DNA of 36,228 nt, from NCBI GenBank assembly GCA_027618255.1, contig JAQCFG010000017.1, forward strand, positions 1-36,228, given 5' to 3'. Made by a program: the position numbers and the translations under genes. Shown piece after piece: positions 4,998 to 30,195 of the stretch (its first letter is position 1; each line of letters begins with the position of its first letter). The stretch is from Cyanobacteriota bacterium. Lineage in GTDB: Bacteria; Cyanobacteriota; Vampirovibrionia; LMEP-6097. Under the pieces are notes generated by a model, which worked only from the letters and a program-made list of their open reading frames with translations, was not told the DNA's origin and made no database searches.

Positions 4998-5444
4998 ATG
5001 AACAAAGCTATATCAAAATCACCGGCCTCGCCTGCTAAGACTCCGAAGCCAGTTCGAGCAAAGAACAAAAAAGAACCCAGTATCAGACCATTACTGGATC
5101 GAGATGGATTAACTGTCAAACAATTAAATGAAGCAGAGTTTGCTGATGAGCCCAAAGAATTTAGTTTTGATTTCAAAACAACTCAAGTTTTTATACCGAG
5201 AGACCAGAGACGCAACCAAGCTTCTAGCCTTGAGATTGATCGTTTTGTAGCGCAGGCAATGCCATCTGGTGAAATCATGCTTGAAACCTATAGCAGCTCC
5301 AAGGGTACGATGTACTATGTAATTGTTGAGTTTGATGATCATTACTATCTACTCAAAAGACCAAAGAAAGAAACTGAATTTAAATTACAAGGGCTTATTC
5401 CGGAGTACAAAGTTGATGAGCTTAGAGAACGCTTAGCTGAGTAA
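4998..5444 (+). CDS. Hypothetical protein, 148 residues
   Basis: The N-terminal 35 residues are Lys/Pro/Ala-rich and probably disordered. The remainder looks like a small folded domain of alternating strands (MLETYSSSKGTMYYVIVEF, DDHYYLLKRP) with a charged C-terminal helix (VDELRERLAE). There is no signal peptide, and no family is recognised. It converges with the gene at 5479-6249 across 34 bases. Confidence 0.55.
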   Translation: MNKAISKSPASPAKTPKPVRAKNKKEPSIRPLLDRDGLTVKQLNEAEFADEPKEFSFDFKTTQVFIPRDQRRNQASSLEIDRFVAQAMPSGEIMLETYSSSKGTMYYVIVEFDDHYYLLKRPKKETEFKLQGLIPEYKVDELRERLAE

Positions 5445-5478
5445 TAAACACGGCATCTCCACCTTCGGCTCTGTAGTT

Positions 5479-6249
5479 CTAACTATACTCTCCAAGCTTC
5501 ATTTTCACAGAATCAATCAGCTGAAGCAATGTTTGATGTTCTGTTGTCCCAGCTTGAACCCTCTTGAGGCTTGACTTATAAACATTGAGCATATTTTCAA
5601 ACTTGGATTTATAGTAGTTATCAGTGCTTGTTTCATTATTAATTTGTTCTTGAACTATTGTTTTCAGTTCATCAAACATAGTAGCTTCTGATTCAATTCT
5701 AATCATAGAGATTATACGTTGAGCCTCAATTTGTTTGTCGATATCAACAAATTGGTTATCTACTTGATCAGCCTGAATTCGGTAATGGTATTCTGTATTA
5801 ATTCCCGAACTCAACTCTTCTTCTTGGATAAGCTCTGCCATTACAATTGCTTGACTAACAGCTCTGCTATTACGCATTGAACCACGTCTCTCATTTTGGT
5901 TAGCTTCTTCCAAACTTGGTTCTACCAAGCTTGGCATCATAAAACTAGGTTGAGCAAAACTAGGTATCATAAAACGAGGCTCACTAAAACTCATTCTCTG
6001 TTCATGCACTAACTGCGCAAGCTGGAATCTTGGAGGTGGTGCAGCTCTGGCAGCAGTGCGAAACTCAGGAACAGTTTCCGCAACTATCGCTTCCTGATTA
6101 TCCAGAAATGCCATATCATCAGACAGATTTATCTCTGTTTGACCGTGAATACTCGATGTGAATAATTGTCGTAATAATCCTTGTTCTGCAAGGCTTTGAT
6201 TCTTTGATGCCAATTGTGCTTTCTTATGCTCTATCGCCTGGATATTCAT
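5479..6249 (-). CDS. Hypothetical protein with a Phe-Met-Pro-Ser peptide repeat
   Basis: ATG 6249 has an AAAGGA ribosome site upstream. The 256-residue protein has a helical N-terminus. Residues about 87-110 repeat the pattern EPRFMIPSFAQPSFMMPS followed by LVEPSL, and the DNA there repeats as well. The C-terminal half is long charged helices with a conserved-looking coiled-coil feel. There is no signal peptide or membrane span. Proline-spaced aromatic repeats can act as docking motifs, but the role is unknown. It is divergent from the gene at 6415 across a region with a perfect palindrome. Confidence 0.6.
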   Translation of the reverse strand: MNIQAIEHKKAQLASKNQSLAEQGLLRQLFTSSIHGQTEINLSDDMAFLDNQEAIVAETVPEFRTAARAAPPPRFQLAQLVHEQRMSFSEPRFMIPSFAQPSFMMPSLVEPSLEEANQNERRGSMRNSRAVSQAIVMAELIQEEELSSGINTEYHYRIQADQVDNQFVDIDKQIEAQRIISMIRIESEATMFDELKTIVQEQINNETSTDNYYKSKFENMLNVYKSSLKRVQAGTTEHQTLLQLIDSVKMKLGEYS

Positions 6250-7798: not shown

Positions 7799-7819
7799 CT
7801 ATTTCAAACCTCGGAGGCT

Positions 7820-7915
7820 GTCGGAATTATTTCCAAAGGCAACACGCGCATTCCGCGCGGTTGCTACCTTTTTTGAGCGACCTGTACATCGCAACTTTGT
7901 TTCGATGTACAGGTC
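7820..7915 (-). repeat. Two-hairpin intergenic repeat, copy A
   Basis: Read on the minus strand it begins after a TA (7916-7917). Hairpin I has a 13-bp perfect stem, GACCTGTACATCG with its complement. Then come GCTC, a six-A run and GG, a GC-rich hairpin II (GCAAC-CGCG stem), and the end GGAAATAATTCCGAC. It is about 92% identical to 21490-21584. Its right end points at the start of tag. The order matches that of the 109-bp TA-flanked family, though the right end lacks an inverted repeat and TA. Confidence 0.75.
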
Positions 7916-7975
7916 TATTATATTTCAATAAAATCAAATCGACCATTATGACTCAAATAAGTGAATAATAAATAT

Positions 7976-15715: not shown

Positions 15716-16570
15716 TTAACCCATCTGAGCAATATTACTTTCGACAGATTCGCCAATCTGGCCAATACTGCTACTTACAGTAACGACTTGTCCATTAGCC
15801 ATTTCCATACTACGAGCAATCTCATTAGTTACAGCTGTTTGCTCTTCAATAGCACTTGCAATAGAGGTAACAACTTCATTGATTGATTCAACTGACTCTG
15901 TAGTAATTGCAATTGACTTTAAGGCAGAAATTGTTTGTTGTTGAATAGACATCCTGCAAAACAAAGTTTTGCTAGTGATGTCTATTACTAAATTTCTCTA
16001 GATCCGTCATAATTACACGAACAGCATCAGCCTCTTGGACTGTTTTTTTTGTCATAGTCGCTGCTGATTTCGTGTTTGAAGAAATTTCAGCAATACTTGA
16101 GACCATTGCTTCAGTAGCTGTTACAACACCTGTAATATACTTAGCAAGCTGCTCAGAAGCGTTTCCCGTATCAGTAACAAGTCCCATTACAGTACTTTTC
16201 AATCTATCTTTACTATCGAGAGTACGTTTCTCAAGAGCCAATCTATCAGTGACTACTGACCAAGTTACCACGGGTCCAAGATATTCTTTATTTTCGTCGT
16301 AAACAGCAGTTACCAGCAAATCCAAAGTCTCTTCTCCAAGATTAATCTGTGTTTGATGAGGAAGATTGGCAGGATTAGCCAATAGTTTGCGTTGGTGTGC
16401 TGGCGACTTATGAAAAACATCATATGAGCTTCCAACTATCTGATCAACCGGTATTGGTACAAGATGAAAAAAAATATTTTTCAAGAGATTTCTATATCAA
16501 TTAGCCACACTCAAGATAAACACATCGGTTAAATTTCTGAGTTTTTTTATTTGACATATTTGTCAACCCT
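15716..16570 (-). pseudogene. Decayed methyl-accepting chemotaxis protein (PAS type)
   Basis: Fragments on the minus strand match PAS-type chemoreceptors: a PAS C-terminal half (LVPIPVDQIVGSSYDVFHKS, then VVTWSVVTDR), then the first signalling helix (SIAEISSNTKSAATMTKKTV), then the return helix (IASAIEEQTAVTNEIARSME). Three lesions are visible. Stop codons and an eight-T frameshift cut the PAS N-terminal half near 16460-16530. A 35-bp hairpin element at 15948-15982 shifts the frame. The highly conserved hairpin tip (normally an AEQTNLLALN...GFAVVA-type segment of about 60 residues) is absent exactly at that element. CheA/CheW contact would be lost. Outer limits are approximate. Confidence 0.85.
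15948..15982 (+). mobile_element. 35-bp solo hairpin of the TA-flanked family (copy E4)
   Basis: This sequence is flanked by TA on both sides (15946-15947, 15983-15984). It differs from the first 35 bases of the 109-bp copy at 18258 only in the three loop bases (AAA instead of CCT). The stem pairs GACATC and GCAAAAC with their complements. Taking out 35 bases plus one TA joins the two chemoreceptor frames in phase (Ser-Asn to Ile-Gln-Gln). Confidence 0.75.
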
Positions 16571-16646
16571 ACTCTAACACGTGCTCTGCACAGTCAGAAT
16601 CTTCTTATCTCAGCATCACCAGCAAAACGGAGTTTTGTATGATGTC
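16560..16646 (-). repeat. Degenerate two-hairpin element (copy E5)
   Basis: Read on the minus strand it starts after a TA at 16647-16648 with GACATCATACAAAAC, loop TCC and GTTTTGCTGGTGATGC. An A-rich spacer with AAGAAG follows, then TGTGCAGAGCACG as hairpin II. That core is shared with the copy at 27410. The other end has no matching terminal repeat, so its limit is approximate. The first codons of the gene at 16639 lie inside the element. Confidence 0.55.
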
Positions 16647-18243
16647 TAATAAAATCAATGATGTACTGAAGCAGTATAATAAACCGGTGCCTTTTAACCC
16701 TAGATTAGTTTTTTCCTTGCTTATAAGCCTTGGCCTTGCACTGTTTGTTGAGCATAGAGTATTTTTTGATACCTATGCCATCAATGACGATGTGCGTAAT
16801 CAAATCTATGGCATGGCAAAATATCTCGACCCCAGTTATTTTGCAAATGATTATATAGCTGCATACTTTACTCAACCGAGCATGATCTCACCGATAGTTG
16901 GCTTGATCTATAAATCATTTAGTTTTTTTGCTGATCCAAAATTACTTACACAATACTTGCCATTCATTTTAATCATGGCTACAACTTACTTTCTCTTCAA
17001 AGCTTCTGAAATTCATGCTGGATCTAATTATGCTTTTTGGGTTTCATTTGTTTTCAATCTCTATATTTGGACAATGAAATATATGGCTGGTGGATTAGCT
17101 CGTGCATTCTTTTATCTCTTGTTCTTTATGTTTTTCTACTTCCTTGCAAAAAGAGCCTGGAAGAGTATGGTTCTTTGTTTTGCTTTACAAGCATTGATTT
17201 ACCCGACTGCTTGTTTTCTTTCATTAATAACCCTTATCATCGAATTAATCAGAACAAGGTTTTTCTTGAAGGAAAAAATCAAAGACATTACAAAGGCTTT
17301 GACTGGCAGCTTCCTAGTATCAGCAATCATTCTCTACTTTAGATATATTTATTTCAAAGTACCGGGTTTTGGTCCAATGACCACACTGGATCAAGCAGTG
17401 AAGATGCCAGAGTTTTACTTAGATGGCAGAGCCTGTGTCTTTGTAGTGCCATTTAGTTTTTATCAAAATGGCATTAGTCTTGAATTAATCACAAATGGCT
17501 TTATCAAGTTTTGGGACTGCTCATACATACTGATTCTAATTATTGCTGCATTAGTTTTGTTCTATTCCATCTCTCGCAAATTCTTTAACGTCTCTAAAAC
17601 AACAATCACAAGCCCAAGCTATCTTTGGTCAAGCGCGATAGCTTCTCTCTCTCTCTTTGTGATTGCGTATCTCAATCTCTTCTATCTTTATTTACCACAT
17701 AGATATATTGCATACACCTTGCCTCTTGTGCCAATTTATCTAATTGGTGCATTATTGTTTAAACTAGAATCAGACTGCAGCAAACGTCCAATCATCACTT
17801 GGATTGTAGCTATTGTCATGATCCTAGCCATCGCACCTCTTTGGAGAGAGGATTTGATACATCTAAGCAAAGCTGAGCGTAAGTTACATCAATTCTTGGA
17901 AACTACACCAAAGCAATCAATGATCGCAGCCCCGCTCAAACTAGCAAGTAATATACCTGCCTTTGCTTATCGCTCGGTGATAGCAAGTAGTGAGACCAAT
18001 ATCCCTTTTCACCAAACCTACTATAAGGAAGTTAAAACAAGAGTCGACAATTTGGCACAGCTCTACGCAACTACAGACATCAATTATATTCGTGACTTTG
18101 TTCAGCAATACTCAATTGATTATGTCGTTATCGATACATTCCTTGAAAGCCTGTCAGAGACTAGTCCTCTTCGCAGTATCCCTGAAACAAGCCAAGCATA
18201 CATAAATAAAAGATACAAAGTATTTAACGCTGCTATGATTTAG
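16639..18243 (+). CDS. Polytopic membrane protein, GT-C-like glycosyltransferase
   Basis: This 534-residue protein has roughly ten hydrophobic helices. The first, ending near residue 38, is followed by an outside loop with IND50-D51, the position of the catalytic acidic pair in GT-C enzymes that use lipid-linked sugars. A soluble C-terminal tail of about 120 residues (from LSKAERKLHQF) ends with strand-like IDYVVIDTFL. I infer transfer of a sugar on the outer face of the membrane; no closer family is recognised. ATG 16639 and the GGAG six bases before it both lie in element E5, with GGAG in the hairpin loop. trmH follows after element E1. Confidence 0.65.
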   Translation: MMSNKINDVLKQYNKPVPFNPRLVFSLLISLGLALFVEHRVFFDTYAINDDVRNQIYGMAKYLDPSYFANDYIAAYFTQPSMISPIVGLIYKSFSFFADPKLLTQYLPFILIMATTYFLFKASEIHAGSNYAFWVSFVFNLYIWTMKYMAGGLARAFFYLLFFMFFYFLAKRAWKSMVLCFALQALIYPTACFLSLITLIIELIRTRFFLKEKIKDITKALTGSFLVSAIILYFRYIYFKVPGFGPMTTLDQAVKMPEFYLDGRACVFVVPFSFYQNGISLELITNGFIKFWDCSYILILIIAALVLFYSISRKFFNVSKTTITSPSYLWSSAIASLSLFVIAYLNLFYLYLPHRYIAYTLPLVPIYLIGALLFKLESDCSKRPIITWIVAIVMILAIAPLWREDLIHLSKAERKLHQFLETTPKQSMIAAPLKLASNIPAFAYRSVIASSETNIPFHQTYYKEVKTRVDNLAQLYATTDINYIRDFVQQYSIDYVVIDTFLESLSETSPLRSIPETSQAYINKRYKVFNAAMI

Positions 18244-18257
18244 GCTAAAATAATATA

Positions 18258-18366
18258 GACATCCTGCAAAACCCTGTTTTGCTAGTGATGTCGACACAAA
18301 AAGGGTCGGAACAGTGCGGTGCACTAGTTCCGTTAGTAAAGATAAAGGGAACTTTCGCAGGAAGTC
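18258..18366 (+). mobile_element. 109-bp TA-flanked element (copy E1)
   Basis: TA at 18256-18257 and 18367-18368 flank imperfect terminal repeats GACATCCTGC and GCAGGAAGTC. Inside are hairpin I (18258-18292), GACAC with an A-run and GGG, and hairpin II with a GGAAC/GTTCC outer stem and GTGC/GCAC inner stem. It separates the GT-C-like gene from trmH; without it and one TA the two genes would be about 22 bases apart. Gap-free alignment with 21724-21832 over all 109 positions. Confidence 0.8.
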
Positions 18367-18376
18367 TAATAGAATA

Positions 18377-18964
18377 ATGGTCACAGAACAGCGCCTAACC
18401 AAAATAACCGCAGTGGTCTCCGAAAGACAAGAAGGCATAGTCGTGCTTGAAGACATTCACGACCCGCATAATGCACAAGCGGTAATTCGATCCTGTGATT
18501 GTTTTGGTATTCAAACTATCTATATCATTTTCCAAAACGAAAAACAATTCAATCCAGAGAAGATGGGCAAACTCGCTTCAAGCTCCGCAAACAAATGGGT
18601 TGATTATAAGATTTTTGATTCCACTCAAGCTTGTTTCGACCAGCTCAAAACCGATGGCTATACGAGCTATGCAACAGTGCTTAAAGCAGAAGCTAAATCA
18701 ATTTACCAAAGCAACTTTGCCAAATCAGAAGAGAAGATCGCAATTGTCTTTGGCAACGAACATGCCGGCTTGAGTCAAGAAGCAATCGAACTTAGTGATA
18801 ACTTAGTTACCATCCCAATGAACGGTATGATCCAAAGCCTCAATCTGTCAGTGACAGCTGCTATATTTTTATTTGAGATCAATCGGCAAAGAAGAGTTGC
18901 AGGTTTTGACAAGTTTGGCTTGAAGGAGCAGGAGCAGCTTGTTGAAGATATGATTAGTCGCTAG
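18377..18964 (+). CDS. trmH: tRNA/rRNA ribose 2'-O-methyltransferase, SpoU/TrmH type
   Basis: This 195-residue, AdoMet-dependent SPOUT-fold enzyme has motif 1 LEDIHDPHNAQAVIRSCDCF with Asn32 and Arg38, motif 2 IVFGNEHAGLS (123-133), and motif 3 IPMNGMIQSLNLSVTAAI (146-163) of the trefoil knot. Length and the short charged C-terminus fit TrmH, which methylates G18 of tRNA; a related target is possible. ATG 18377 fits the family start; a longer frame from 18314 would be translated from element E1 and is rejected. The nearest ribosome-site-like run, AGGA, is the right end of E1, 14 bases before the ATG, which is farther than usual. Confidence 0.9.
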   Translation: MVTEQRLTKITAVVSERQEGIVVLEDIHDPHNAQAVIRSCDCFGIQTIYIIFQNEKQFNPEKMGKLASSSANKWVDYKIFDSTQACFDQLKTDGYTSYATVLKAEAKSIYQSNFAKSEEKIAIVFGNEHAGLSQEAIELSDNLVTIPMNGMIQSLNLSVTAAIFLFEINRQRRVAGFDKFGLKEQEQLVEDMISR

Positions 18965-18992
18965 ATAGTCACTTCCCAGCATGCATAAAAAA

Positions 18993-19016
18993 AGAGCTGC
19001 CTGGATAGACAGCTCT
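18993..19016 (-). terminator. Intrinsic terminator, mainly for flagellin
   Basis: AGAGCTG and CAGCTCT form a 7-bp stem with a 10-base loop. On the minus strand a seven-T run follows directly, making a good terminator after the flagellin gene. On the plus strand only ATTTT follows a few bases later, so it may also serve trmH weakly. Confidence 0.75.
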
Positions 19017-19103
19017 CTGGATTTTATCGGTCTGAATTAGTAAACCTTACTCCCCCCCCCAGAAGTAGTCTTACTACATATCACCAGTGATGAGAGAATG
19101 CCC

Positions 19104-19982
19104 CTATCTCACCATCGGCAAAAGTGTTAGTGCAAGAGACGCGTTAGCTTGCCGCTGACTGCTCATTGCAACTGTGCTAGAACGAAGAATGAATCCTCGT
19201 ACAGCAATACTGGTCTCTCTTGCAAAATCTGCGTCCCGCAATCGTGACCTAGTCGCCAAAGCCGCTTCTCTACTGCCGCTCATGGACTGACTCTTAGAAA
19301 CAAAAGCGTTTTCTTTTGCTCCCAAACTTGATTGTGCAGCGGCGACATTGTCAATGGCATTATCAAGTCCTGTGATAATGTCATCAAGATTGCCTGTTAC
19401 TACATCTATATTGTTTAATGCTTCCCCTAAAGCCCCGCCGCCATTACCTTCATTGATATTGCCAGCTGCATTAGCTGAAGCAGAATCAAAACTACCACTC
19501 AAATCTATGGAGTCTGTGTCGCCAGAATCAGTGCCAGTTTGAATATTAAGCGTACCGGCACTTGCATCTAATAATTTAATTCCATTAAAGCTACTGCCGC
19601 CGGAAATATCATCAATATTACTCAAACGTGAATCTATTTCACTTTGAATCGCCTGTTTTTCCACAGTGCCCAAAGTATCATTGTTTGCCTGAACGGCAAG
19701 TGAACGAATCTCCTGTAACTCAGTTTGTATAGAACCCAAACCCGCTTCTGCTGTTCGAATTAAACTAACACCATCACCTAAATTACGCTCTGCAACTTCA
19801 TAACCTCTAATCGAAGAAGTCAAAGACTGAATTCGAGCTGTATTTGCAACATCATCTGCTGCTCCGTTAATCCGCAAGCCTGAAGACAATCGCTCGATTG
19901 CCTGACCTAAGGTCCGGTTAGTTTGATTATAGGCATTTCCAAAAACTGTACTAAAACTATTAAAGCTAATCCCCGTAAGCAT
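19104..19982 (-). CDS. fliC: Flagellin
   Basis: This 292-residue flagellar filament subunit is exported by the flagellar secretion apparatus. The N-terminal D0/D1 region (ERLSSGLRINGAADDVA, then LGDGVSLIRTAEAGL and RSLAVQANNDT) and the C-terminal D1 region (SLGAKENAF, RSRLRDADFARETS) are conserved. The short middle, rich in Gly/Asp/Ser, means almost no variable outer domain. The last 30 residues depart from the usual QILxQAxxAMLAQAN pattern (GFILRSSTVAMSSQRQANA, ending LLPMVR). GGGGGA precedes ATG 19982. A sigma-28 promoter lies 94 bases upstream and a terminator downstream, so it is a single-gene unit. A nine-C run lies past the stop (19052-19060). Confidence 0.95.
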   Translation of the reverse strand: MLTGISFNSFSTVFGNAYNQTNRTLGQAIERLSSGLRINGAADDVANTARIQSLTSSIRGYEVAERNLGDGVSLIRTAEAGLGSIQTELQEIRSLAVQANNDTLGTVEKQAIQSEIDSRLSNIDDISGGSSFNGIKLLDASAGTLNIQTGTDSGDTDSIDLSGSFDSASANAAGNINEGNGGGALGEALNNIDVVTGNLDDIITGLDNAIDNVAAAQSSLGAKENAFVSKSQSMSGSREAALATRSRLRDADFARETSIAVRGFILRSSTVAMSSQRQANASLALTLLPMVR

Positions 19983-20075
19983 TCATTTTCCCCCGATGTC
20001 CTCTATATACACCAAATGGGGGACAAAATAACGTCCGAAAATTAGATATTCTTAATAATTGATCTACATCTTAGT

Positions 20076-20102
20076 ATATCGGCAATCTAAAGCAAGACTT
20101 GA
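20076..20102 (-). promoter_or_regulatory. Sigma-28 (FliA-type) promoter of flagellin
   Basis: On the minus strand TCAAGTCT (6 of 8 to TAAAGTTT), an 11-base spacer and GCCGATAT (7 of 8 to GCCGATAA) match the flagellar sigma-28 consensus with exact spacing. Confidence 0.8.
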
Positions 20103-20120
20103 ATGAAATTATTTTAAGCT

Positions 20121-20147
20121 CGATACCCCGCCCGGGGTGGGGTATCG
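20121..20147. repeat. Strong GC-rich inverted repeat
   Basis: CGATACCCC and GGGGTATCG form a 9-bp perfect stem around a CCCGGGG-containing core, in an otherwise AT-rich region between flagellin and the divergent hydrolase. No T-run follows on either strand, so a protein-binding site or attenuator is as likely as a terminator. Confidence 0.45.
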
Positions 20148-20259
20148 GTGAGGTTTGAGGAATTTACCCACAGAAATATAAAAAATCTGTTAGAATTTAT
20201 ATTAATTAGGACAAAGGACAGATAAGCCACGACTTATTGTTGTGCGCTGAATTAAACAA

Positions 20260-21465
20260 ATGACGAGTGCAGCACTAGCAGCTCCGCATCATTACATGCC
20301 GGTACCAACAGCTCCAAGCCAGCCAGGATTTTTTGGTGGCGTAAAAAACGTACTCTCAAGTTTACTCAAGGATGCAACATCAGGACTAAGCAACTCTAAG
20401 GCAGTCGATAGAGCAGTTAAACTATTACACCAAGCACCAGCATTAGCATCTTCCATTAGCCCCCTCGTCCGTTCAACAACCAGTCCACTTTTAGATTTCT
20501 TTAATCTTGAACAACGCTTTTTTACAGGGTCAGTTTTTGCAAGAGAAGCACTTACCCTTAAGCATATACAAACGATATTTAAAGATATCCCTGATCTAAA
20601 CATTACAACCAAACTTCTTCGTACTGAGGCTAATCGACCGCCTTTGACTCAGTTTCACATCACGCCAGCAAAAGCAATCACATCTCCTTTGACAATTCTC
20701 TCTGGAATTAGAACTTCAGCTTTATATAAATCAAATGGAGCTAAAGATTTGGTCAGACACGGCATCCCCGTTAGCATGAGCGATTACACCGGATACGGAG
20801 ACACTTTTGGTCAAGCAACGGTCCACTGCAAAACGCTAATAGCTGACGCAATCAAAATGCTTAAAGCACAATTTGCAAATCATTCAGAAGTTAATCTATT
20901 AGGTCACTCTCTTGGTAGCGCAATTGGGGCAAATGCATTTGCCAAACTGAGTGCTACGAACCCCAATTTTAATAGTGGCAACTTTATTTGCGCCTCTGGC
21001 TGGAATGACTTTGATAGCGTCTGCAGTGAGCTACCACAAACAACACTAAGACCATTTGCAAATATGCTCAGAGGTTACGCTAATAAATTATTCAAAAACG
21101 AATGGGACACTGGCGCAAACCTATGTACAACAATGGACAATATAGTCAAGAATATTACTGCAAAGCCAGCACAGCCATGGACAAAATTCCGCATTATGAT
21201 AGTTCACGGCATCAAAGACAAACTTGTTTCGATAAAACAAGCAAAGAAACTACAACAAACTCTAGAAGCTCACAAAGCGACATTACCGCCAAATCTACAA
21301 GATCACTTCGAAATTAGCTTTTTAACCGTCCAAGACGCTGGTCACTTCAATACCAAACAAGGTGATATAGAAATCCCATTTCCCGAAATCAGAAACGCCT
21401 TACTTGCTCAAAATCCTAGTACAGCGGCAAGTCCCGTACTTGCAAACACAAACAAAACAGCATAG
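20260..21465 (+). CDS. Alpha/beta hydrolase (lipase/esterase-like)
   Basis: In this 401-residue protein the catalytic half (about 145-385) has the nucleophile elbow LLGHSLGSAIG with Ser217, an acidic residue in VHGIKDKLVS (Asp320) and His362 in DAGHFN, the order of an alpha/beta-hydrolase triad. The first 140 residues are unrecognised: Ala/Pro-rich start (APHHYMPVPTAPSQPG), then amphipathic helices, without a Sec signal or membrane span. A secreted or effector role is possible but not shown. The ribosome site before ATG 20260 is weak. Two repeats follow the gene. Confidence 0.8.
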   Translation: MTSAALAAPHHYMPVPTAPSQPGFFGGVKNVLSSLLKDATSGLSNSKAVDRAVKLLHQAPALASSISPLVRSTTSPLLDFFNLEQRFFTGSVFAREALTLKHIQTIFKDIPDLNITTKLLRTEANRPPLTQFHITPAKAITSPLTILSGIRTSALYKSNGAKDLVRHGIPVSMSDYTGYGDTFGQATVHCKTLIADAIKMLKAQFANHSEVNLLGHSLGSAIGANAFAKLSATNPNFNSGNFICASGWNDFDSVCSELPQTTLRPFANMLRGYANKLFKNEWDTGANLCTTMDNIVKNITAKPAQPWTKFRIMIVHGIKDKLVSIKQAKKLQQTLEAHKATLPPNLQDHFEISFLTVQDAGHFNTKQGDIEIPFPEIRNALLAQNPSTAASPVLANTNKTA

Positions 21466-21489
21466 ACCAACAATAGACTTGTTTTGAAA

Positions 21490-21584
21490 GTCGGAATTAT
21501 CTCCAATGGCAACACGCGCATTCCGCGCGGTTGCTACCTTTTTTTGAGCGACCTGTACATCGAAACTTTGTTTCGAAACAGGTC
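21490..21584 (-). repeat. Two-hairpin intergenic repeat, copy B
   Basis: It is about 92% identical to 7820-7915, with changes mainly in the loop and one arm of hairpin I, where pairing GACCTGT/ACAGGTC and CGAAAC/GTTTCG is kept. It is preceded on the minus strand by TA (21585-21586). It lies after the hydrolase gene and 140 bases before a 109-bp element. Confidence 0.75.
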
Positions 21585-21723
21585 TAATATTCCACCAAGG
21601 TTAATAGCAGCTTAAGTAATTTCCTCAAGAAAATAGTTATATTTACCTAGACTATGGGTATGATACCTGATAGGGAACGACTCATATTGAAGACCTAGAT
21701 AGCTTCTAATAATGAGAGGACTA

Positions 21724-21832
21724 GACATACTTCAAAACGAAGTTTTGTTAGTGGTGTCGACACAAAAAAGGTCGGAACGGTAGGAACTACGAGTTCCGTT
21801 AGTGTAAATAAACGGAACTTGCGCAGGGAGTC
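21724..21832 (+). mobile_element. 109-bp TA-flanked element (copy E2)
   Basis: TA at 21722-21723 and 21833-21834. It aligns with E1 without gaps. Hairpin II keeps GGAAC/GTTCC but has GTAG/CTAC in place of GTGC/GCAC, a paired change. Its end AGGGAG (21825-21830) lies four bases before the ATG of the next gene. The sequence just left, GAGAGGA (21714-21720), would lie four bases from the same ATG if the element and one TA were removed. Confidence 0.8.
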
Positions 21833-21834
21833 TA

Positions 21835-23781
21835 ATGGATAGCTTAAATTTAACAACCAGCTTAATAGAAATAGTCGGGATTGTAATAGTAACCTGGTTA
21901 GTCTTTCAGTATGCTCCGATGATACAAAAAGCTCTGGACGCACAGCTTGGTGGAGGACATAGTAATGATGCTAATGCATCAAATCAACCCTTGTACAAGA
22001 TTTTTTATAAATACCAACATGAAAGCTCTGAACAATGGATTAGATGGATACTTTCACAAAACGAAGAGACCAAAGCCAAAGCATATGAAAAATTGCAAAC
22101 CTATTTAGAAAGTCCTGCACCAAAACTAGGGCTTTGTGCCAAAGATGTCATTATGGCAGTTGCCGCATTTAAGCGCCAAGATAGTTTTGATACATTAAGT
22201 AAATTTTTGGACAATGTTCGGTCTCATCTAGGGACCTTGAAAACCGTTGAACTTTTCTACTCACAACTTCTTGCTTCATTAATTCGATTAGACCTAATTA
22301 GAGGTGCCAAAATTTTAAAAGAAGAACTAGAATACTTTAGTCAAAAAAGAAATACTGCCAAAATTACTTACGACAACTTTAGAATCAAGATCATTAAGAC
22401 TTATAAACAAATGGAAATACTTCCAAGAGAAACCAGAGATTGCATAATAGCAACATTGTGTAATGGCAGTTATAGCGCAGTATTTAGGAAAGAATTGATC
22501 AAAATTATTGCTGAACACAATGACAAAGATATTTCGGACTACGTATATCCCAAAGTATTAAGGTATTTTTTGCAGGATGAAGTCCCAGCAATTAATGAAG
22601 AGAGTGAAGACGTACTTGAAAACCTCTTCTATAGCTTCAAAGACTTTAGTAAAGGACACAAAGAGACCTGGGGTCTTTTACTTGAAGCTTGTTACAAAGA
22701 AAAAACTTATGAACTATACATGAATTTATTGACAGGATTAGTTGCTGACAGAACAGAAAAATTTGAAAATGAACAATTGTTAGATATTCTCAATATCAAA
22801 GAACCTGCGAAAGATGCCTTCAGAAGTGCATTACAAGAAAGGAACTATGTAACAGACGAAGAGATGACTATTTTCAGATCCAAAGTTAAAGCCGAAGACC
22901 TTGAATTTAGTTCTGATACCGTAGTCATAGAGAAATTACGTAAAACCAAATCTGTAGCCAGTTCTTTATTAGAACAATACAAGCGACTAAGGGTGATTGT
23001 GGAAAGAGATTTTTCCACTGCAAACAAATCGGAACGTAGAATATCTCATACCATCAAATTAATTACTGGTACAAGCGACAGAGAGAAGCTCTATTTATTG
23101 AGAGCTCTAGCTGCCAATGAGAATCGAAGCTTGGTATACATCGACATTGCTCGTATGATCTACAACATACCAGAACTCAATAAGTTAATTAGTACTATCA
23201 GCAATGCAAAGCCGGCTCTAGTCTACGTAGATAATCTACTACATATTTTTGAAACCAATCTTGATGAAGAAGGGCAAAACGGTCTTCGTTTATTCTTAAA
23301 AACGCTTAGAGAATTAGCAATCTTGCCTACTGTTGCATTTTTTGGTTCGATATCGACGTCTGGTCTTGATTTACAAAAAAATCTTAAACTCAAACAACTT
23401 CTTGCCAGTAGTATGAAGGGTGATTATGAACTTTCAATCAACCTCGATAATCCAACAGATGATGAAAAAGTACAAATTATTAATGATATACTCGGCAAAA
23501 TTACTACTGATAAAATAGATAGAAGCTTTAAGACTACTGCAATATTACTAGCAACTGAAGGTAAATCATTCTTAGAATTTTGGTCTTACCTTTGTGATTT
23601 CTTTGAAAAAGCTTTAATGGTAAAAGGACGCATTGTTGATCCCCAATATTTATTTAGTGATCTGCCAGGTCAAGAGGATGTTAAGGAAAAAAGTCCAGAA
23701 GCACAGAGCCAAGAAGCTGCAACAAGCACAACAGAATCAACAGCAGAAGAGGCTGAGAATCAAGTAGAGACAGCAGTTTAA
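21835..23781 (+). CDS. Membrane-anchored protein with degenerate AAA+ domain
   Basis: This 648-residue protein has one N-terminal membrane helix (about 8-26) and a long helical middle (50-390). Residues about 400-600 are laid out like an AAA+ module. The Walker A place reads ITGTSDREKLYLLRALA (410-426), with no GxxxxGKT. The Walker B place is PALVYVDNLLHIF (460-472), with Asn where the catalytic Glu is normal. A sensor-1-like strand is LPTVAFFGSISTSG, followed by a Pro-x-Asp-x-Glu-Lys stretch like the second region of AAA proteins. It probably cannot hydrolyse ATP. It ends in a Glu/Ser/Thr tail. The role is unknown; a scaffold is one option. menG/ubiE follows 32 bases on. Confidence 0.7.
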   Translation: MDSLNLTTSLIEIVGIVIVTWLVFQYAPMIQKALDAQLGGGHSNDANASNQPLYKIFYKYQHESSEQWIRWILSQNEETKAKAYEKLQTYLESPAPKLGLCAKDVIMAVAAFKRQDSFDTLSKFLDNVRSHLGTLKTVELFYSQLLASLIRLDLIRGAKILKEELEYFSQKRNTAKITYDNFRIKIIKTYKQMEILPRETRDCIIATLCNGSYSAVFRKELIKIIAEHNDKDISDYVYPKVLRYFLQDEVPAINEESEDVLENLFYSFKDFSKGHKETWGLLLEACYKEKTYELYMNLLTGLVADRTEKFENEQLLDILNIKEPAKDAFRSALQERNYVTDEEMTIFRSKVKAEDLEFSSDTVVIEKLRKTKSVASSLLEQYKRLRVIVERDFSTANKSERRISHTIKLITGTSDREKLYLLRALAANENRSLVYIDIARMIYNIPELNKLISTISNAKPALVYVDNLLHIFETNLDEEGQNGLRLFLKTLRELAILPTVAFFGSISTSGLDLQKNLKLKQLLASSMKGDYELSINLDNPTDDEKVQIINDILGKITTDKIDRSFKTTAILLATEGKSFLEFWSYLCDFFEKALMVKGRIVDPQYLFSDLPGQEDVKEKSPEAQSQEAATSTTESTAEEAENQVETAV

Positions 23782-23813
23782 ACAAACTTGAAGACTAGAG
23801 CTATAATAAAGAG

Positions 23814-24524
23814 ATGGATAAACCCAAATTTATTCACAACTTGTTTAGCCGCATAGCCGGCAAATATAATCTATTGAACGATGTGATGACATTGTCTTTG
23901 CATAGACAATGGAAAAAACAAGCTGTCGCAATCGCAGCCAAGGCAATCAAACGCAAAGACGCCAAAGTATTAGATCTATGCACTGGCACTGGTGATATAG
24001 CTGAGCTATGGATAGCAAATCCAGCAGTCAAAGACGTAATCGCGGTTGACTCCTGCGCTCAGATGCTACAAGTGGGATATCAACAACTAGAACAAAAATT
24101 CAAGGGACCACCACCCAAGTTACAAATGATCGAAGCAGATGCACTCTCACTACCATTTGAAGACAATAGCTTTGATGCAGTTACAGTCGGTTTTGGTTTG
24201 CGCAATGTCAATGATTTACTCAAAGCTTGTGAGGAAATCAAAAGAGTACTTAGACCTGGCGGCATACTAGTCAGCCTTGATCTTGGTCACCCCAGTATCC
24301 CTCTGGTAGACTGGCTCTACAAAAATATTCTATTAAAAATAATCCCAATTATCGGTATGCTTTTTGCACAAGACAAAGCAGCGTATCAATATCTTTCTGA
24401 TTCACTCAAGACTTGGCCTTTACAAAAAGAACTATCACAAGGACTTTATAGCCTTGGTTTCACCAGGAGTTTTACTAAGGATATAATGTTGGGGACGATA
24501 GCTATAGTAGCCGCAGAGAAGTGA
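23814..24524 (+). CDS. menG: Demethylmenaquinone/ubiquinone C-methyltransferase
   Basis: This 236-residue AdoMet-dependent enzyme of the UbiE/MenG family carries out the C-methylation step of quinone synthesis. Family marks are RIAGKYNLLNDVMTLSLHRQWK near the start, LDLCTGTGDIAELW as the AdoMet loop, VDSCAQML, DALSLPFEDNSFDAVTVGFGLRN split by normal spacing, and EIKRVLRPGGILVSLDLGHP. Which quinone is used cannot be told from this gene. It probably shares a transcript with the AAA-like gene upstream and converges with the gene at 24527. Confidence 0.93.
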   Translation: MDKPKFIHNLFSRIAGKYNLLNDVMTLSLHRQWKKQAVAIAAKAIKRKDAKVLDLCTGTGDIAELWIANPAVKDVIAVDSCAQMLQVGYQQLEQKFKGPPPKLQMIEADALSLPFEDNSFDAVTVGFGLRNVNDLLKACEEIKRVLRPGGILVSLDLGHPSIPLVDWLYKNILLKIIPIIGMLFAQDKAAYQYLSDSLKTWPLQKELSQGLYSLGFTRSFTKDIMLGTIAIVAAEK

Positions 24525-24526
24525 CA

Positions 24527-25066
24527 TTAGTCTGCCAATGCGCTGTAATTTATTTTCGATAATTTCGACTCTGTCATATACGCACCAACAAACGCACCAT
24601 TCAAGTACTGCTTGACATGACCTTTGGCAACTAAATCTCCAGCTTCATCAAATCTAAAATCGGTAATAGTCCTTACAAACCAGTAATCACCGGCGTCTTC
24701 CAATTTACTCTCTCTTTCCCAATGTAAAGAGTTGTCATAATTAAAATCTATTACTCTATTTCTAACCAAGTGCCAATCATTTGCTTGCCACTCAGGATAA
24801 AGCTTACCGTTGATATCGTTGATGCGTATCTTAGAGACAGCTGAACTACCTTCAGCAACATACTTACAATCAGACCAAGTGACTGAAGACTCGACTTCCC
24901 ATTCACCAACCAGTTCAGAGCGCTGCTCGGACTTGGACGCCATCAACTGAAAAGCAATTGCTTGTGCACTTAATGGATTAAAAAATAAAACTAAGCCAAT
25001 TGTACACAGCACAAGCTTGCGTCTCAAACCTAACAATAAAAGCAAAATATAAAATATCCTTTCCAC
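24527..25066 (-). CDS. Exported hypothetical protein
   Basis: The frame opens at GTG 25066. A hydrophobic signal-like segment (LVLCTIGLVLFFNPLSAQA) ends near residue 36, so the true start may be one of the TTG codons further in. The mature part (about 140 residues) is beta-rich with regular Trp/Tyr residues (GEWEVESSVTWSDCKYVAEG, DYWFVRTITDFRFDEAGDLV), like a small barrel or lipocalin-type fold. No family recognised. Confidence 0.6.
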   Translation of the reverse strand: MERIFYILLLLLGLRRKLVLCTIGLVLFFNPLSAQAIAFQLMASKSEQRSELVGEWEVESSVTWSDCKYVAEGSSAVSKIRINDINGKLYPEWQANDWHLVRNRVIDFNYDNSLHWERESKLEDAGDYWFVRTITDFRFDEAGDLVAKGHVKQYLNGAFVGAYMTESKLSKINYSALAD

Positions 25067-25117
25067 GTTAAGAGATATCGGCTATTAGCGTGGCCGACTA
25101 AAGATCTAATTGTAAAT

Positions 25118-25966
25118 CTAAAGCAATTCGAGTAGTTCTTTTGGTCTAGGTGCAGTGAGCTTAATACGCTGTTTGCTTAATGGCTGCCTAAATTCTAGGC
25201 TAATTGCATGCAAAAGATGTCTCTCAATCAGCAAACCAGAACGAAATGATTCAGCGTAAACCGAGTCACCCACAATCGGATAACCAAGGTGAGCCATATG
25301 TACCCGCAATTGATGGGTCCTACCAGTAACAGGATTCAAAGCAAGATGAGCATATTTTTTGTAGTTCTTTATCAACTGGTATTCTGTAATTGCTTTCTTG
25401 GATTTATGACTAGCTCTTTTGGCGACTTGCCAAACTTGCATGGCACCAATCTTGCGCGCCATTTCCATTTCATTTTCTATTCTGCCATTAGCTTCTAATT
25501 TCCAGTGACCATCAACAATAGCTTCATATTGTTTCTTGACTTCTTTATCTTTAAATTGACGCATCAATTCAGTCAATGATTTTTTGTCTTTTGCAAAAAG
25601 ACAAAGTCCACTTGTTTGTTTATCGAGACGATGCACTGGCTCAATATAGCGATAGAGTTTTTTGAGCTCTTGAGTGAGATTAGCTTCATTAGATTTTTCG
25701 GTGGACATAATTGCGTGCCCAGCGTCTTTGTTATAAACGAGCACTTGATCATCTTGGTAAATAATTCGAGAATCTTCAATTACCAGCCTTGGCTTAGCCT
25801 TAGTCTCAATATTGCGAAACACTACCTTATCTTTAGGCTTGATTTCAACTGAGGCATAACGCTCAATCTTGCCATTAACAGTGCAAGCACCAGCTTCAAG
25901 GGCTCGTTTAATTGACCGATTAGTTAAATCATCATGTTTTTCTTTTAAATACTGTATTAATTTCAT
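25118..25966 (-). CDS. RluA-family pseudouridine synthase with S4 domain
   Basis: This 282-residue enzyme isomerises uridine in rRNA or tRNA. An S4 RNA-binding domain covers about residues 1-55 (RSIKRALEAGACTVNG). The catalytic motif is PVHRLDKQTSGLCLFAKD, whose Asp attacks the uracil. Later motifs are HLALNPVTGRTHQLRVHMAHLGYPIVG-type (split here by normal spacing) and RHLLHA. The exact site is not assignable. A TATAAT on the minus strand lies just upstream of the start, giving a very short leader without a clear ribosome site. Divergent from the dehydrogenase gene. Confidence 0.92.
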   Translation of the reverse strand: MKLIQYLKEKHDDLTNRSIKRALEAGACTVNGKIERYASVEIKPKDKVVFRNIETKAKPRLVIEDSRIIYQDDQVLVYNKDAGHAIMSTEKSNEANLTQELKKLYRYIEPVHRLDKQTSGLCLFAKDKKSLTELMRQFKDKEVKKQYEAIVDGHWKLEANGRIENEMEMARKIGAMQVWQVAKRASHKSKKAITEYQLIKNYKKYAHLALNPVTGRTHQLRVHMAHLGYPIVGDSVYAESFRSGLLIERHLLHAISLEFRQPLSKQRIKLTAPRPKELLELL

Positions 25967-26010
25967 GAACTGTTTTAAAATTATAGCTACTTAACAAAGG
26001 AGTTGAGAAA

Positions 26011-27357
26011 ATGAAACAAGAATTATTATCTAAGGATAGCCCAAATCAGGGTATAAAAGAAGAGATGACAGAAAAAGAATGGCCTGAATACACAGCAGGA
26101 GGCAAGACTTGTTATAACGCACAGACTTGTTTTTTGCTTAATCGCCAACATGGAATGCATAAGAATAAAAAGATAGACGATACTTTATTGTCTTACCTCA
26201 ATACTTGCAAGCGCGAAATCACCATGGAGATTCCACTGCGTCGTGATGACGGAACCTTAATGCCAGTTAAGGCTTTTCGAGTACAACACAACAATGCCCG
26301 TGGTCCTTTCAAGGGCGGCTTGCGTTATCACCAAGATGTTGACCTTGCTGAGATTCGTAGCATGGCTAATCTAATGACCTGGAAAACTGCGCTTGTTGAT
26401 ATTCCATTTGGCGGTGCCAAGGGTGGTATTGCAGTCAATCCCAAAGATTTATCAGAACATGAACTTCGCAGATTAACCAAAGCTTTGGTTTCTCATCTTG
26501 GCAATAATATTGGACCGCATATTGATATTCCAGCACCTGACGTCAACACCAATCCCCAAGTGATGTCATGGATCTATGATGAGTACGCCAAGAGTCACTC
26601 AGAAACCTCTCCGCTGGCTGTCGTCACAGGCAAACCAGTAGAGCTTGGTGGTTGCGCCGCAAGGCTTGAAGCTACCGGGCGCGGTGTTGCGATAATGCTT
26701 CGCGAGTATTGCAAGCTCAATAAAATCGATCCTAAATCATTACGAGTTGCTGTTCAAGGTTTTGGTAATGTAGGTTACCATGCTGTGCGCATAATCAGTG
26801 CTGAACTAGGTTCTAAGATAGTCGGCATCAGTAATGCAATTAGTGCAATTGAAAATCAGGATGGTATTGATGTTGAAGCTGCCAAGCAGACCGAACAAGA
26901 ACACGCCGATGATCTAAGCAAATTAGCCGGCTGCAAATCTATCAAACGTGATGATTTGCTTTTCGTTGACTGTGATGTTTTAATCCCAGCAGCTCTTTCA
27001 AATGCAATCACCAAAGAGGTTGCAGAGCGAACCAAGGCAACCGTCTTACTCGAGGCAGCTAATAGCCCGACTACAGCTGAAGCAAACGAGATTCTTTATA
27101 ACAAAGGAGTCTTCATTGCTCCAAGTATTCTTTGTAACGCAGGTGGTGTGATTACTAGTTACTTCGAATGGACACAAAACCTACAACAGTTTTATTGGGA
27201 TTATGATGTTACTGTCGCTGAGCTAGACAAGCGCATGGTCAAAGCATTTTGGGACGTCATTGAAGTTTCCGAAGAGAAGGGTATTGGAACTCGGCAGGCG
27301 GCTTACTTTATTGCTTTAGAGAAGGTTGCGGCGGCGGCTTTGTTGAGAGGGTTTTAA
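26011..27357 (+). CDS. gdhA: Glu/Leu/Phe/Val dehydrogenase, probably glutamate dehydrogenase
   Basis: This 448-residue protein interconverts glutamate with 2-oxoglutarate and ammonia using NAD(P). It has the ARGPFKGGLRYH substrate loop, MTWKTALVDIPFGGAKGGI with the catalytic Lys region, DIPAPDVNTNPQVM, and the Rossmann turn VQGFGNVGYHAV with its Gly pattern. The N-terminal 60 residues have more Cys and Asn than usual. ATG 26011 has AAAGGAG upstream. Specificity for Glu over Leu/Val is inferred from the general match and length. Confidence 0.9.
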   Translation: MKQELLSKDSPNQGIKEEMTEKEWPEYTAGGKTCYNAQTCFLLNRQHGMHKNKKIDDTLLSYLNTCKREITMEIPLRRDDGTLMPVKAFRVQHNNARGPFKGGLRYHQDVDLAEIRSMANLMTWKTALVDIPFGGAKGGIAVNPKDLSEHELRRLTKALVSHLGNNIGPHIDIPAPDVNTNPQVMSWIYDEYAKSHSETSPLAVVTGKPVELGGCAARLEATGRGVAIMLREYCKLNKIDPKSLRVAVQGFGNVGYHAVRIISAELGSKIVGISNAISAIENQDGIDVEAAKQTEQEHADDLSKLAGCKSIKRDDLLFVDCDVLIPAALSNAITKEVAERTKATVLLEAANSPTTAEANEILYNKGVFIAPSILCNAGGVITSYFEWTQNLQQFYWDYDVTVAELDKRMVKAFWDVIEVSEEKGIGTRQAAYFIALEKVAAAALLRGF

Positions 27358-27409
27358 GAGACCAGACTTAGATTTCAAGCCAATTTTAGGTAAAGAGTCA
27401 TTCTTTATA

Positions 27410-27518
27410 GGACACGCTGAAAAACGAAGTTTTTCTAGTCGGGTCCCTGATAAAAGGTTGTGACCGTGCAGAGCACGTGTCACATAAGGCGCGAGAAAGT
27501 CTATTTTTCAGTGTATCC
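27410..27518 (-). mobile_element. 109-bp TA-flanked element (copy E3)
   Basis: TA at 27408-27409 and 27519-27520 flank good terminal repeats, GGACACGCTGAAAAA and its near complement ending GTATCC. Inside are hairpin I with loop GAA, GAT plus an A-run and GG, and an 11-bp hairpin II (TGTGAC-CGTGC stem with AGA loop). The length is again exactly 109. It sits at the end of the minus-strand operon, supplying its last four codons and stop. Strand is nominal because the element is nearly symmetrical at its ends. Confidence 0.8.
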
Positions 27519-30195
27519 TATATTGATACCAATTTGCAATCTTGGGCGTTTCACATTTGCCACAAGGCGCAATTTTGCCATAATCAACGGATACATTTTC
27601 TTCCGGCTCTGACATCTCTATCTTTGCACTGTTTGTTTCTGCAACAACTAAACCCTCTGCCCTTTTCTTCTCAACCACGCTACAGCTTGGATCCCAATGC
27701 ATTAAATAATTCTCATGAACGAGACTTGGAGTTAACTTCTTGCCTTTTTTTGTAACAATGACTCTAAAACCTTGACCTTCATATACAGGAACCAATGCTT
27801 CTTTTGTATCAAGATCAACAGCCGGGGCAACCTTGACCGTATCTTTCTTCTGTGAAGTGCCCTGAGCTGAACCTGATTGGGGCTGAGGCTTTGAAAGCAT
27901 TATCAATTTCAAAAACAAATCCCGCAAATCGTCCGTGAAAGATAAATCAAAAGAAGCATTTCTATGCCATGATTTACTTAATCTTTGTAATAAAACTATC
28001 ACACTTTGCTGCAAATCATTATCTAAAAGCTCTCCCTTATTTAACCTTAGATCTAAATATTGATCCAAGAAATCTGCCAATAATTTACGAAGACCTGGCT
28101 GATCAAGCTCATCAATACGAAGAGTCAAGAATTTGGCAAATAATAATAAAGAGGTTTCAGGACTAAAAGACTCAGCTTGATCCAAAGAATTTATATCATG
28201 ATTAAATTGAAGCAATGAAAGCAAAGAATCAGGCTTAACAAGTGGAAATTGACACAATTCTGAAATCATTCGCCCAAGCATTCTATTCGTACGATCAATG
28301 GAGGGCAGAGTCGATTTGGTATTGTCAAACTTCTTAGCCAAAACTTCCAACTCGGCTTTATGGCAATCTTGATAATTAATGATATCCCTATATATCTGGA
28401 AGCCTGCAATAATTCTAGATTCATTCATTCCAGCCAAGTCTAACTTACTACAAGGTATCTCCTTGTCTTCAGCGATACGGTGATTAACGAAAGGATGAGC
28501 TCCTTTCCCTATATGTTCGTTATGATTCATCTTAATAACAGACAAACTAGGATCTTGTAACAATAGTTGTTTTTCAATCGCTGACTGAGCACTACTTGTG
28601 ACAAATCCAGAAGCGGAAGAATTTATTTTTGAAATTAAGATCGTCTGAATACCATGCGTCTTTGCAAATTGAACTAAAGCAGAAGCGATATTAACCCCAT
28701 TGTCAATAACGGATTTTGCGGAATCTGTATCTATGAAAAACACTAAAGCAAAACCAACACTAGGATCTTCAAGAATAGCAAGATTGGGATTATTCTGAGT
28801 ATATATCTGGCTACTATTCTTTTGACAGCATAGTTTAAAACGTTCAAGAGGTTGAAAATAATTAATAAGATACTCTCCACTATAACCGTTTATTGCATTG
28901 TCTTCTTTTGCTGTTGGTAAAATATCGACTTGAATACCACTCAATGGATCTAGATATTGATACGACCTTTGTGTTTGTTCATAATTAGCAAACTCAGGTT
29001 TTAATAATTGAAGCTCTCTAATGATTCCAGCGCAAGCTCTCTTTAAGTTATGAGCAAATTGAACTGTTTTGGCATACTGTGTTTTTTGAGCAGGAGACCT
29101 AGTAGCCTTTATTGCTTCAGCTTGAATCATCTCCAATTCAGTGTCATTAGTGTTGTTCAAAGCCTCCAAACAACGGGCAACTACCGGTTCAAGTGTTTTT
29201 ACTAAGTCCTCAATCTGATACATCTGCCCCTGTATTGAATAATCTGTGCCTAAGTGACTATTAATCTCTTTCAACAAGCGAAATAAATCTTGAGCCACAG
29301 ATAATTTATAATCCCTTTTGTACCCTCGCAGGTAAGAACGCAAACAACTATTGCCGGTGGGCACTGGTTCGTCTTTGGTCGGTCCATTTGATTCTAGCGC
29401 ATCAACATCCAAGTCAAAATCACTCATTGCTTGAACATCATTTTTAAAACGGAACAGAAAAGTCTCCTTCTTTCGGACTCCTCTCACTGTAGTATCAAAG
29501 CTAGTACTTGCTAGAAGAAAATATTTTTGAGCTGTATCCAATAACTTACTAAGCAATGGATGATCAAAACGAAGCTTAGTAGCATCAAAATTGTTAAGAT
29601 CACAACCTTCGATATGTTTAGCCAGTAAAGACAAGAACTCTGGATAGGGAATTGCAAATGCATCATTTTGTTTGCGTATAGAATATAATTGCAGTAACAA
29701 TGTATGATTTTGAGTTTTTGTTTTATTCAGTTCGGGATATGCCTTTGTCAAAAACTCAAAAGCCTTCGCTCTCTGTCTATCAGTCTCATTAGCACGCCCC
29801 AAAAAATGAAACAACCTTTCTAGAACCATAAAATCAGCAGCATTAAAAAAACCAGTTTCTTTAAAATAATCAGATAGTACGGGGGCAAGTTTCTTCCTTA
29901 CCTGCCCCTTGCTCTCAGTCAAAAGCTGCTTAGCCCAAGCCGGTAAATCAGTAGCTTTCAATTTCAACAAAAGATATTGATCAAGCGATGCGAGCTTTGC
30001 TTTTGGCAAGTTTGGACTTGCACCAAATTCTCGACTAAGCGAACTGGGCTCTATAATTTCTGCAGGCTCAGCAGCAGACAAACAATTCAACTCTTGAACG
30101 TGGCTAGGCTTGTCAACAAGCCGAGCTCTAGCTGTATTCAAATCAGATGTTTGATTTGCTCTTATCCTAGAATTGTCATCAACAGGACCAAGCAT
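27508..30195 (-). CDS. Large protein of unknown system, possible vWA-like segment
   Basis: ATG 30195 starts one base after the stop of the gene before it and has GAGAGG eight bases upstream; it is preferred over GTG 30231. The product is 895 residues, soluble and mostly helical. Residues about 480-610 alternate strands and helices like a von Willebrand A domain: VGFALVFFIDTDSAKSV (DxDxS in place of DxSxS), then GIQTILISKINSSASGF and a later Gly-rich GKGAHP turn. The metal site is incomplete. A linker rich in Gln/Ser/Lys (around 770-790) leads to a small C-terminal domain with CGKC (878-881). The last four residues come from element E3. Last gene of a four-gene operon. Confidence 0.6.
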   Translation of the reverse strand: MLGPVDDNSRIRANQTSDLNTARARLVDKPSHVQELNCLSAAEPAEIIEPSSLSREFGASPNLPKAKLASLDQYLLLKLKATDLPAWAKQLLTESKGQVRKKLAPVLSDYFKETGFFNAADFMVLERLFHFLGRANETDRQRAKAFEFLTKAYPELNKTKTQNHTLLLQLYSIRKQNDAFAIPYPEFLSLLAKHIEGCDLNNFDATKLRFDHPLLSKLLDTAQKYFLLASTSFDTTVRGVRKKETFLFRFKNDVQAMSDFDLDVDALESNGPTKDEPVPTGNSCLRSYLRGYKRDYKLSVAQDLFRLLKEINSHLGTDYSIQGQMYQIEDLVKTLEPVVARCLEALNNTNDTELEMIQAEAIKATRSPAQKTQYAKTVQFAHNLKRACAGIIRELQLLKPEFANYEQTQRSYQYLDPLSGIQVDILPTAKEDNAINGYSGEYLINYFQPLERFKLCCQKNSSQIYTQNNPNLAILEDPSVGFALVFFIDTDSAKSVIDNGVNIASALVQFAKTHGIQTILISKINSSASGFVTSSAQSAIEKQLLLQDPSLSVIKMNHNEHIGKGAHPFVNHRIAEDKEIPCSKLDLAGMNESRIIAGFQIYRDIINYQDCHKAELEVLAKKFDNTKSTLPSIDRTNRMLGRMISELCQFPLVKPDSLLSLLQFNHDINSLDQAESFSPETSLLLFAKFLTLRIDELDQPGLRKLLADFLDQYLDLRLNKGELLDNDLQQSVIVLLQRLSKSWHRNASFDLSFTDDLRDLFLKLIMLSKPQPQSGSAQGTSQKKDTVKVAPAVDLDTKEALVPVYEGQGFRVIVTKKGKKLTPSLVHENYLMHWDPSCSVVEKKRAEGLVVAETNSAKIEMSEPEENVSVDYGKIAPCGKCETPKIANWYQYRIH

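Follow-up and report, generated by a model that had tools for sequence, protein, structure and literature searches.

Repeats in the window

The window is the whole stretch of 36,228 nucleotides analysed here, contig C17 of the source genome (G000, 1.99 Mb). The relatives of its proteins are found in Caenarcaniphilales and Melainabacteria MAGs. We have compared it with two sister genomes (G001 and G002) and with a genome from another genus of the same family (G004). The window contains seven copies or remnants of short repeats, if one of 35 bp is counted. These repeats, their parts and one unoccupied site are as follows:

7814..7917, minus strand: subfamily B copy, right end truncated
15947..15983, plus strand: solo hairpin I (AGACATCC...GATGTCT, 37 bp), which splits a chemotaxis-like ORF
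16537..16648, minus strand: decayed full-length copy (E = 7e-9)
18257..18367, plus strand: copy 1, subfamily A element, AGAC...GTCT, 111 bp; locus also occupied in G001
18258..18292, plus strand: hairpin I of copy 1 (6 bp, 2/4 internal loop, 7 bp, 3-nt loop)
18298..18304, plus strand: A-run and GG of copy 1, conserved in all subfamilies
18307..18332, plus strand: hairpin II of copy 1, from sequence and fold
21475..21585, minus strand: subfamily B element (found as 21474-21586), with a perfect AAT duplication at 21472-21474 and 21586-21588
21723..21833, plus strand: copy 2, subfamily A element, with a single base between it and the ATG at which the gene at 21835 starts
25688..25690, no strand: unoccupied ATT target within the gene of an RluB-like pseudouridine synthase (25118-25966, minus strand); a B element lies there in G001, in frame
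27410..27518, plus strand: copy 3, subfamily D element, GGACAC...GTATCC, 109 bp

The initial annotation described three 109-bp units between TA dinucleotides (18258-18366, 21724-21832 and 27410-27518) and a 35-bp copy with hairpin I only (15948-15982). All four are present in the sequence, and inverted ends, hairpin I, A-run, GG and hairpin II are found in each 109-bp unit. The three units do not form a single subfamily: copies 1 and 2 belong to one and are 81% identical, while copy 3 is a member of another.

The duplicated targets of copies 1 and 2 are decayed (TAT / AAT and ACT / AAT, respectively), and copy 3 is flanked by a 4-bp TATA duplication at 27406-27409 and 27519-27522. In G001 the position of copy 2 is held by a truncated remnant. 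The triplets which flank the solo hairpin are not identical (AAT and ATT). The chemotaxis ORF, MCP-like, is found in two minus-strand parts (15972-16484 and 15716-15964) around this hairpin; the parts are off by one frame, as expected from the insertion of 37 bp. A different type of repeat is seen in G001 (L122, about 5400-5640), opposite window position ~24515: an insertion of ~230 bp which contains inverted, GC-rich segments (GCTGCGGTTGCG...) and is absent from G000.

Structure and subfamilies

We have distinguished five subfamilies (A, B, A', C and D), all of them with the same layout: left end with hairpin I, A-run, GG, hairpin II, tail and right end. The body of the element is 111 bp long, begins with AGAC, ends with GTCT and does not contain a transposase. 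The terminal inverted repeats are imperfect and resemble AGACNTNNTGCRAAA, with 10 to 13 of the 16 outer bases inverted. Left and right ends co-vary by subfamily: CATCCTGCAAAA and CTTCCTGCGAAA in A, CCTGTTTCGAAA and CTTGTTTTGAAA in B, TATCTTGCGAAA and CCTTTTGCGAAA in C. Chimeras between A and B, tandem copies, copies interrupted by another copy and solo hairpins of 35–43 bp also occur.

The elements are strongly structured, with RNA folding z-scores from -3.7 to -5.8. The geometry of hairpin I (6 pairs, a 2/4 internal loop, 7 pairs and a 3-nt loop) is constant across divergent subfamilies. In this hairpin, 96% of cells pair, and compensatory changes are found in 32 cells, against 10.6 expected. 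An Rfam search of the window gave no match above any gathering score.

Two subfamilies deviate in length or ends. A' is one base shorter, so its insertions measure 113 bp and shift the reading frame (for example C8:25582, C8:41144 and C32:16337). Subfamily D keeps the two-hairpin layout with GGACAC..GTATCC ends, and three of its copies have 4-bp TATA or TTAA duplications: the one in the window (27410-27518) and those at L108 452-564 and C6:50670, in which TTAA is seen. These features suggest that D may use a different transposase on a similar body.

Abundance and distribution

The elements are abundant in the source genome. With copy 1 as a BLAST query we have found 44 matches in G000; a search with subfamily B yields 41 copies, complete or partial. 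A covariance model trained on 22 copies detects at least 149 matches (E <= 0.01), or roughly one every 13 kb. The further copies which the initial annotation proposed to look for are thus present in large numbers. We have counted 213 occurrences of the end motif and 9 of a reversed-pattern control; the family is much larger than chance would allow.

With the same model, at least 62 matches are found in G001, 3 in G002 and 40 in G004; the remaining 56 relatives searched gave no match. The 40 copies of G004 are C-like and have perfect duplications (for example L251-L269). They are nearly identical and therefore presumably young, and their spread looks recent. Subfamily B gave no BLAST hit among phage, plasmid and viral sources, and its core was not found in any viral contig. 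The exact 17-nt left end of subfamily A, TAGACATCCTGCAAAAC, is present in three IMG/VR viral contigs (L234, L235 and L236).

Target duplication and empty sites

The initial annotation took the flanking TA for a duplicated target. This is not the case: the T and A are the outer letters of a longer duplication, ANT. When copies are written as ANT-[AGAC...GTCT]-ANT, the middle base is equal on both sides in 47 of 55 copies, against a mean of 23 after shuffling, and none of 20,000 shuffles reached such a value. Whole flanking triplets are identical in 31 of the 55, and the bases outside the flanking TAs are correlated, a T before the left TA pairing with a T after the right one. All 20 copies checked in G004 have a perfect ANT repeat (AAT, ATT or ACT). 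Older copies, copies 1 and 2 included, have imperfect duplications.

Comparison with related genomes reveals the corresponding empty sites, which keep one ANT only. The B copy in the window is found as CAAC-AAT-[111 bp]-AAT-ATTCC, and G001 has a clean empty site, CAACAATATTCC (CAAC-AAT-ATTCC). The biotin ligase gene shows AAATT-AAT-[111 bp]-AAT-GAAG when filled and AAATTAATGAAG when empty. The reciprocal case is RluB, which has a B element in frame in G001 and an empty site in G000. From the ANT duplication and the empty sites it follows that each insertion adds 114 bp, and that the TA is nothing more than the point where A(N)T meets AG..CT.

Most of the in-gene sites which can be tested are empty in a relative. 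By BLAST, the joined flanks (with the insert and one triplet removed) are unbroken in G001 at 9–10 in-gene sites or more, and those of KdsB and PcrA/UvrD match G002 without a break. For MurE and GalE, the empty sites rest on uninterrupted BLAST matches of the joined flanks, the global alignments being misplaced there. At two in-gene sites, C61 and C8:44830, G001 carries the element too.

Insertion into coding regions

In subfamilies A, B and C one frame is free of stops, the one in which the duplicated codon is followed by AGA. Since 111 + 3 = 114 bp makes 38 codons without a stop, insertion in a gene would add 38 residues and leave the protein unbroken. In G000 we have counted 25 copies in this frame. 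Of these, 23 lie inside long ORFs, and two others, one in a 23S/tRNA m5U methyltransferase-like gene and one in C58, would still encode this peptide in spite of indels. A single copy is reversed, near the C-terminus of TruB (25 vs 1, p = 8e-7). A few apparent reverse-frame copies looked like spurious ORFs and are not included in these counts. The supply of sites does not account for the single frame, since in-frame ANT codons make up 42% of the ANT sites in window genes.

The other genomes give similar results. In G001, 13 copies are in this frame, 14 with RluB; of the others, one is in frame +1 and a second, doubtful, is reversed. The G000 and G001 counts are not fully independent because some insertions are shared by descent. 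Both in-gene copies of G004 are in this frame. One G004 copy (L250) lies in frame within an ORF of 370 residues.

According to Pfam, the host proteins include biotin ligase BirA, MurE, GalE, a TPP enzyme, RNase HII, ResB, an MgsA-like AAA protein, a CoA-binding protein, a histidine kinase, KdsB, PcrA/UvrD, ArgJ and an ABC permease with two adjacent copies. The BirA insert of G000 is at C77:1013. When GalE is compared with structure 2c20, nothing is missing apart from the insert, and KdsB aligns in full with structure 1gq9 apart from its own. In one case the same host gene has insertions at different positions in two species (C16:35993 and L307).

ORFs hold an excess of spans which preserve the frame (20/65 vs 4/58, p = 0.001), and stops in the peptide frame are absent from in-gene copies and number several in copies outside genes. 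The A' subfamily, whose insertions shift the frame, is a natural control for selection on the frame: 26 of its 27 members in G000 are outside ORFs. Genes are under-represented as sites, with about 26 of 149 copies, compared with 82% coding in the window. In-gene copies have no codon-position bias, third-position changes not being in excess, and thus no mark of selection on the peptide itself. The simplest reading is random insertion, followed by the loss of copies which break or truncate a protein.

Orientation may have an additional cause. Read from the opposite strand, hairpin II comes first and the A-run behind it is a U-run, so the element would resemble an intrinsic terminator; on minus strand copy 1 has this shape, its hairpin II leading into CC and a T-run. 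It is plausible that a reverse insertion would truncate the mRNA, giving the orientation bias. A terminator pattern scan did not call the element. We have also considered retention between genes as terminators and rejected it, as there is no orientation bias with respect to gene 3' ends (37 vs 31).

Candidate transposase

No intact transposase with matching ends is found in G000, G001 or G002, although IS copies may be lost or collapsed in MAG assemblies. In particular, no DDE_Tnp_4 gene is present in these three genomes, whose draft assemblies may miss one. A fragment of such a gene lies at a contig edge in G004, followed by ATT-AGATCATTTGCGAAAGT; no other DDE_Tnp_4 match turned up in the ten genomes searched. 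Through its protein we have reached a partner-like IS (L238 81-1083) from a different family of the class, 1003 bp long, with two overlapping ORFs which encode HTH_Tnp_4 and DDE_Tnp_4. Its best NCBIfam match is the IS5-family model NF033581, with a score below the cut-off of that model.

The left end of this IS, AGACCTTTTGCGAAAGTC, equals the right end of subfamily C in 18 of 18 nt, and its right end agrees with the C left end in 14 of 17. The agreement with subfamilies A and B is weaker (11–14 of 17). No 17-mer as close was found in 64 kb of unrelated DNA. The flanks of the IS itself are AAT and ATT, so its duplication is not perfect. ISL2 elements duplicate a 3-bp ANT target. To judge by the ends and the duplication length, we infer that the L238 IS, or one like it, may move the elements; the likely mobiliser would be a DDE transposase of the IS5 family, ISL2 type. 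In this genus one would expect an IS5/ISL2 copy which has AGACATCCTGC or AGACCTGTTTC at its ends. The missing partner in the same genome is no strict bar to a MITE, but it lowers the confidence with which a specific partner can be named.

Other transposases have been considered as partners and rejected. The only IS630 (DDE_3) gene of G000 has ends GTATTCCGCAAAATTAATG, which do not match, and the ends of the DDE_Tnp_1 genes in the same or sister genomes do not match either. The IS630-type element is present as a single IS with a frameshifted, two-part transposase (L110 1345-2415, G000:C57). The proposal of a TA-targeting transposase in the initial annotation, of IS630 type, finds no support. 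Its loose link to IS5 or IS630 survives for IS5, through the identity of ends with an IS5/ISL2-type IS, and a transposase gene with matching ends, such as it suggested looking for, exists elsewhere (L238) and has not been found in G000.

Origin of the repeats

We consider it very probable that these repeats are a MITE family with a 3-bp ANT duplication, moved in trans by an IS5/ISL2-type transposase, whose in-frame inserts of 38 residues are tolerated by the host proteins. The non-autonomous, MITE-like nature proposed in the initial annotation agrees with the inverted ends, the many genomic copies and the polymorphic sites. The elements insert at ANT with duplication of three bases, and the occupancy of their sites differs between sister genomes. 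The movement in trans would depend on a DDE transposase of the IS5 family, ISL2 type, cutting with a 3-base stagger. In a gene, the predicted translation of the insert is a peptide such as RPVSKHSFDVQVAQKKVATARNARVAFGDNSDFQNKS plus a duplicated Ile, Asn, Ser or Thr codon. Selection would then purge insertions in other frames or in the opposite orientation, and intergenic copies appear to be neutral passengers.

The strong folding and the covarying hairpins might suggest conserved structured RNAs (leaders, riboswitches or small RNAs) repeated by chance, as might the copy which stops a single base short of a start codon (21835) and the two window loci which are occupied or partly occupied in G001. 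The initial annotation had noted that its proposal would fail if orthologous loci all carried the sequence as conserved leaders; many sites are empty in sister genomes. The absence of an Rfam match, the 149 or more scattered matches, the insertions inside coding genes, the 3-bp duplications and the lack of an orientation bias with respect to neighbouring gene ends (37 vs 31) also argue against such RNAs, which we find hardly credible. An IS630/Tc1-type MITE which duplicates TA, by the mechanism of RUP, would explain why TA bounds every intact copy and why the length is similar to that of RUP, and there is one IS630 gene in G000. The duplication, however, reaches the variable base on both sides, as in the 20 G004 copies, empty sites hold a single ANT and the IS630 copy has other ends, so this mechanism is very improbable.

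Mobilisation as a single strand (Y1/RAYT or IS200/IS605-like), with recognition of hairpin I and its bulge in the manner of REP sequences, would fit the conserved asymmetric internal loop and the solo hairpins of 35–43 bp. We regard it as improbable, given that the variable base is truly duplicated and the inverted ends are paired on both sides and match a DDE-type IS. It is similarly unlikely that the peptide has been domesticated and is kept for a useful role. Diverged copies in ORFs do retain an open frame, and a few inserts are common to orthologs in two species; nevertheless, the host proteins are unrelated, most insertions are lineage-specific and in-gene copies lack an excess of third-position changes. 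The MITE reading also admits an extension, which we put forward only tentatively and consider rather doubtful: selection may have shaped the element for genes as a permissive habitat, giving a transposon family adapted to translation inside host proteins. The features which could be cited for this are a length which is a multiple of three with the duplication, a stop-free, hydrophilic, linker-like peptide and a terminator-like strand which faces away from the host mRNA.

Comparison with known systems

If the MITE family is read correctly, essential enzymes have been lengthened repeatedly by the same 38 residues and remain unbroken, which makes these elements a source of protein insertions. Some unexplained protein inserts in these uncultured relatives of cyanobacteria are mobile DNA, and annotation should take this into account. 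Our literature search found no description of such elements in Melainabacteria.

In length and number the elements recall RUP of Streptococcus pneumoniae and ERIC of enterobacteria, which have 107–127 bp, TA ends, many copies and movement in trans, shown or supposed. RUP, however, has TA termini, an IS630 partner and only intergenic copies (PMC2229807), whereas the elements described here have ANT targets and an IS5-type candidate partner and are often found in genes. The CIR elements of Caulobacter also have two independent hairpin arms and a linker (PMC2229807), but they contain stops in all six frames and are not found within genes. The likeness to IS5/ISL2 elements lies in the matching ends and in the L238 IS, which has DDE_Tnp_4, two overlapping ORFs and a length of about 1 kb, as in ISCaa3 of the ISL2 group (PMC3196728). 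Our elements differ in having no transposase, a two-hairpin interior and an open frame, with no intact IS in the same genome.

The closest resemblance is to the palindromic elements of Rickettsia and Wolbachia (RPE and WPE), the best-known ones inserted in frame, whose mode of movement is listed in a review as an open question. They are hairpin-rich repeats of ~100–150 bp, in several families, found in frame in conserved proteins (PMC3767692, PMC2229807, PMC10969869). Among these sources, a 2007 review marks the RPE target duplication as unknown, and a 2024 review still calls RPEs unusual for their in-frame fusion. Biotin ligase also has palindromic inserts in Wolbachia and Rickettsia (PMC3767692), and is possibly an insertion-tolerant protein. 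The organisms are unrelated and the likeness is one of description, but in the family described here, outside those intracellular bacteria, the ANT duplication, the empty sites and a likely transposase in a partner-like IS are all visible. In summary, by their anatomy these elements are MITEs with IS5/ISL2-like ends, and they behave like RPEs.
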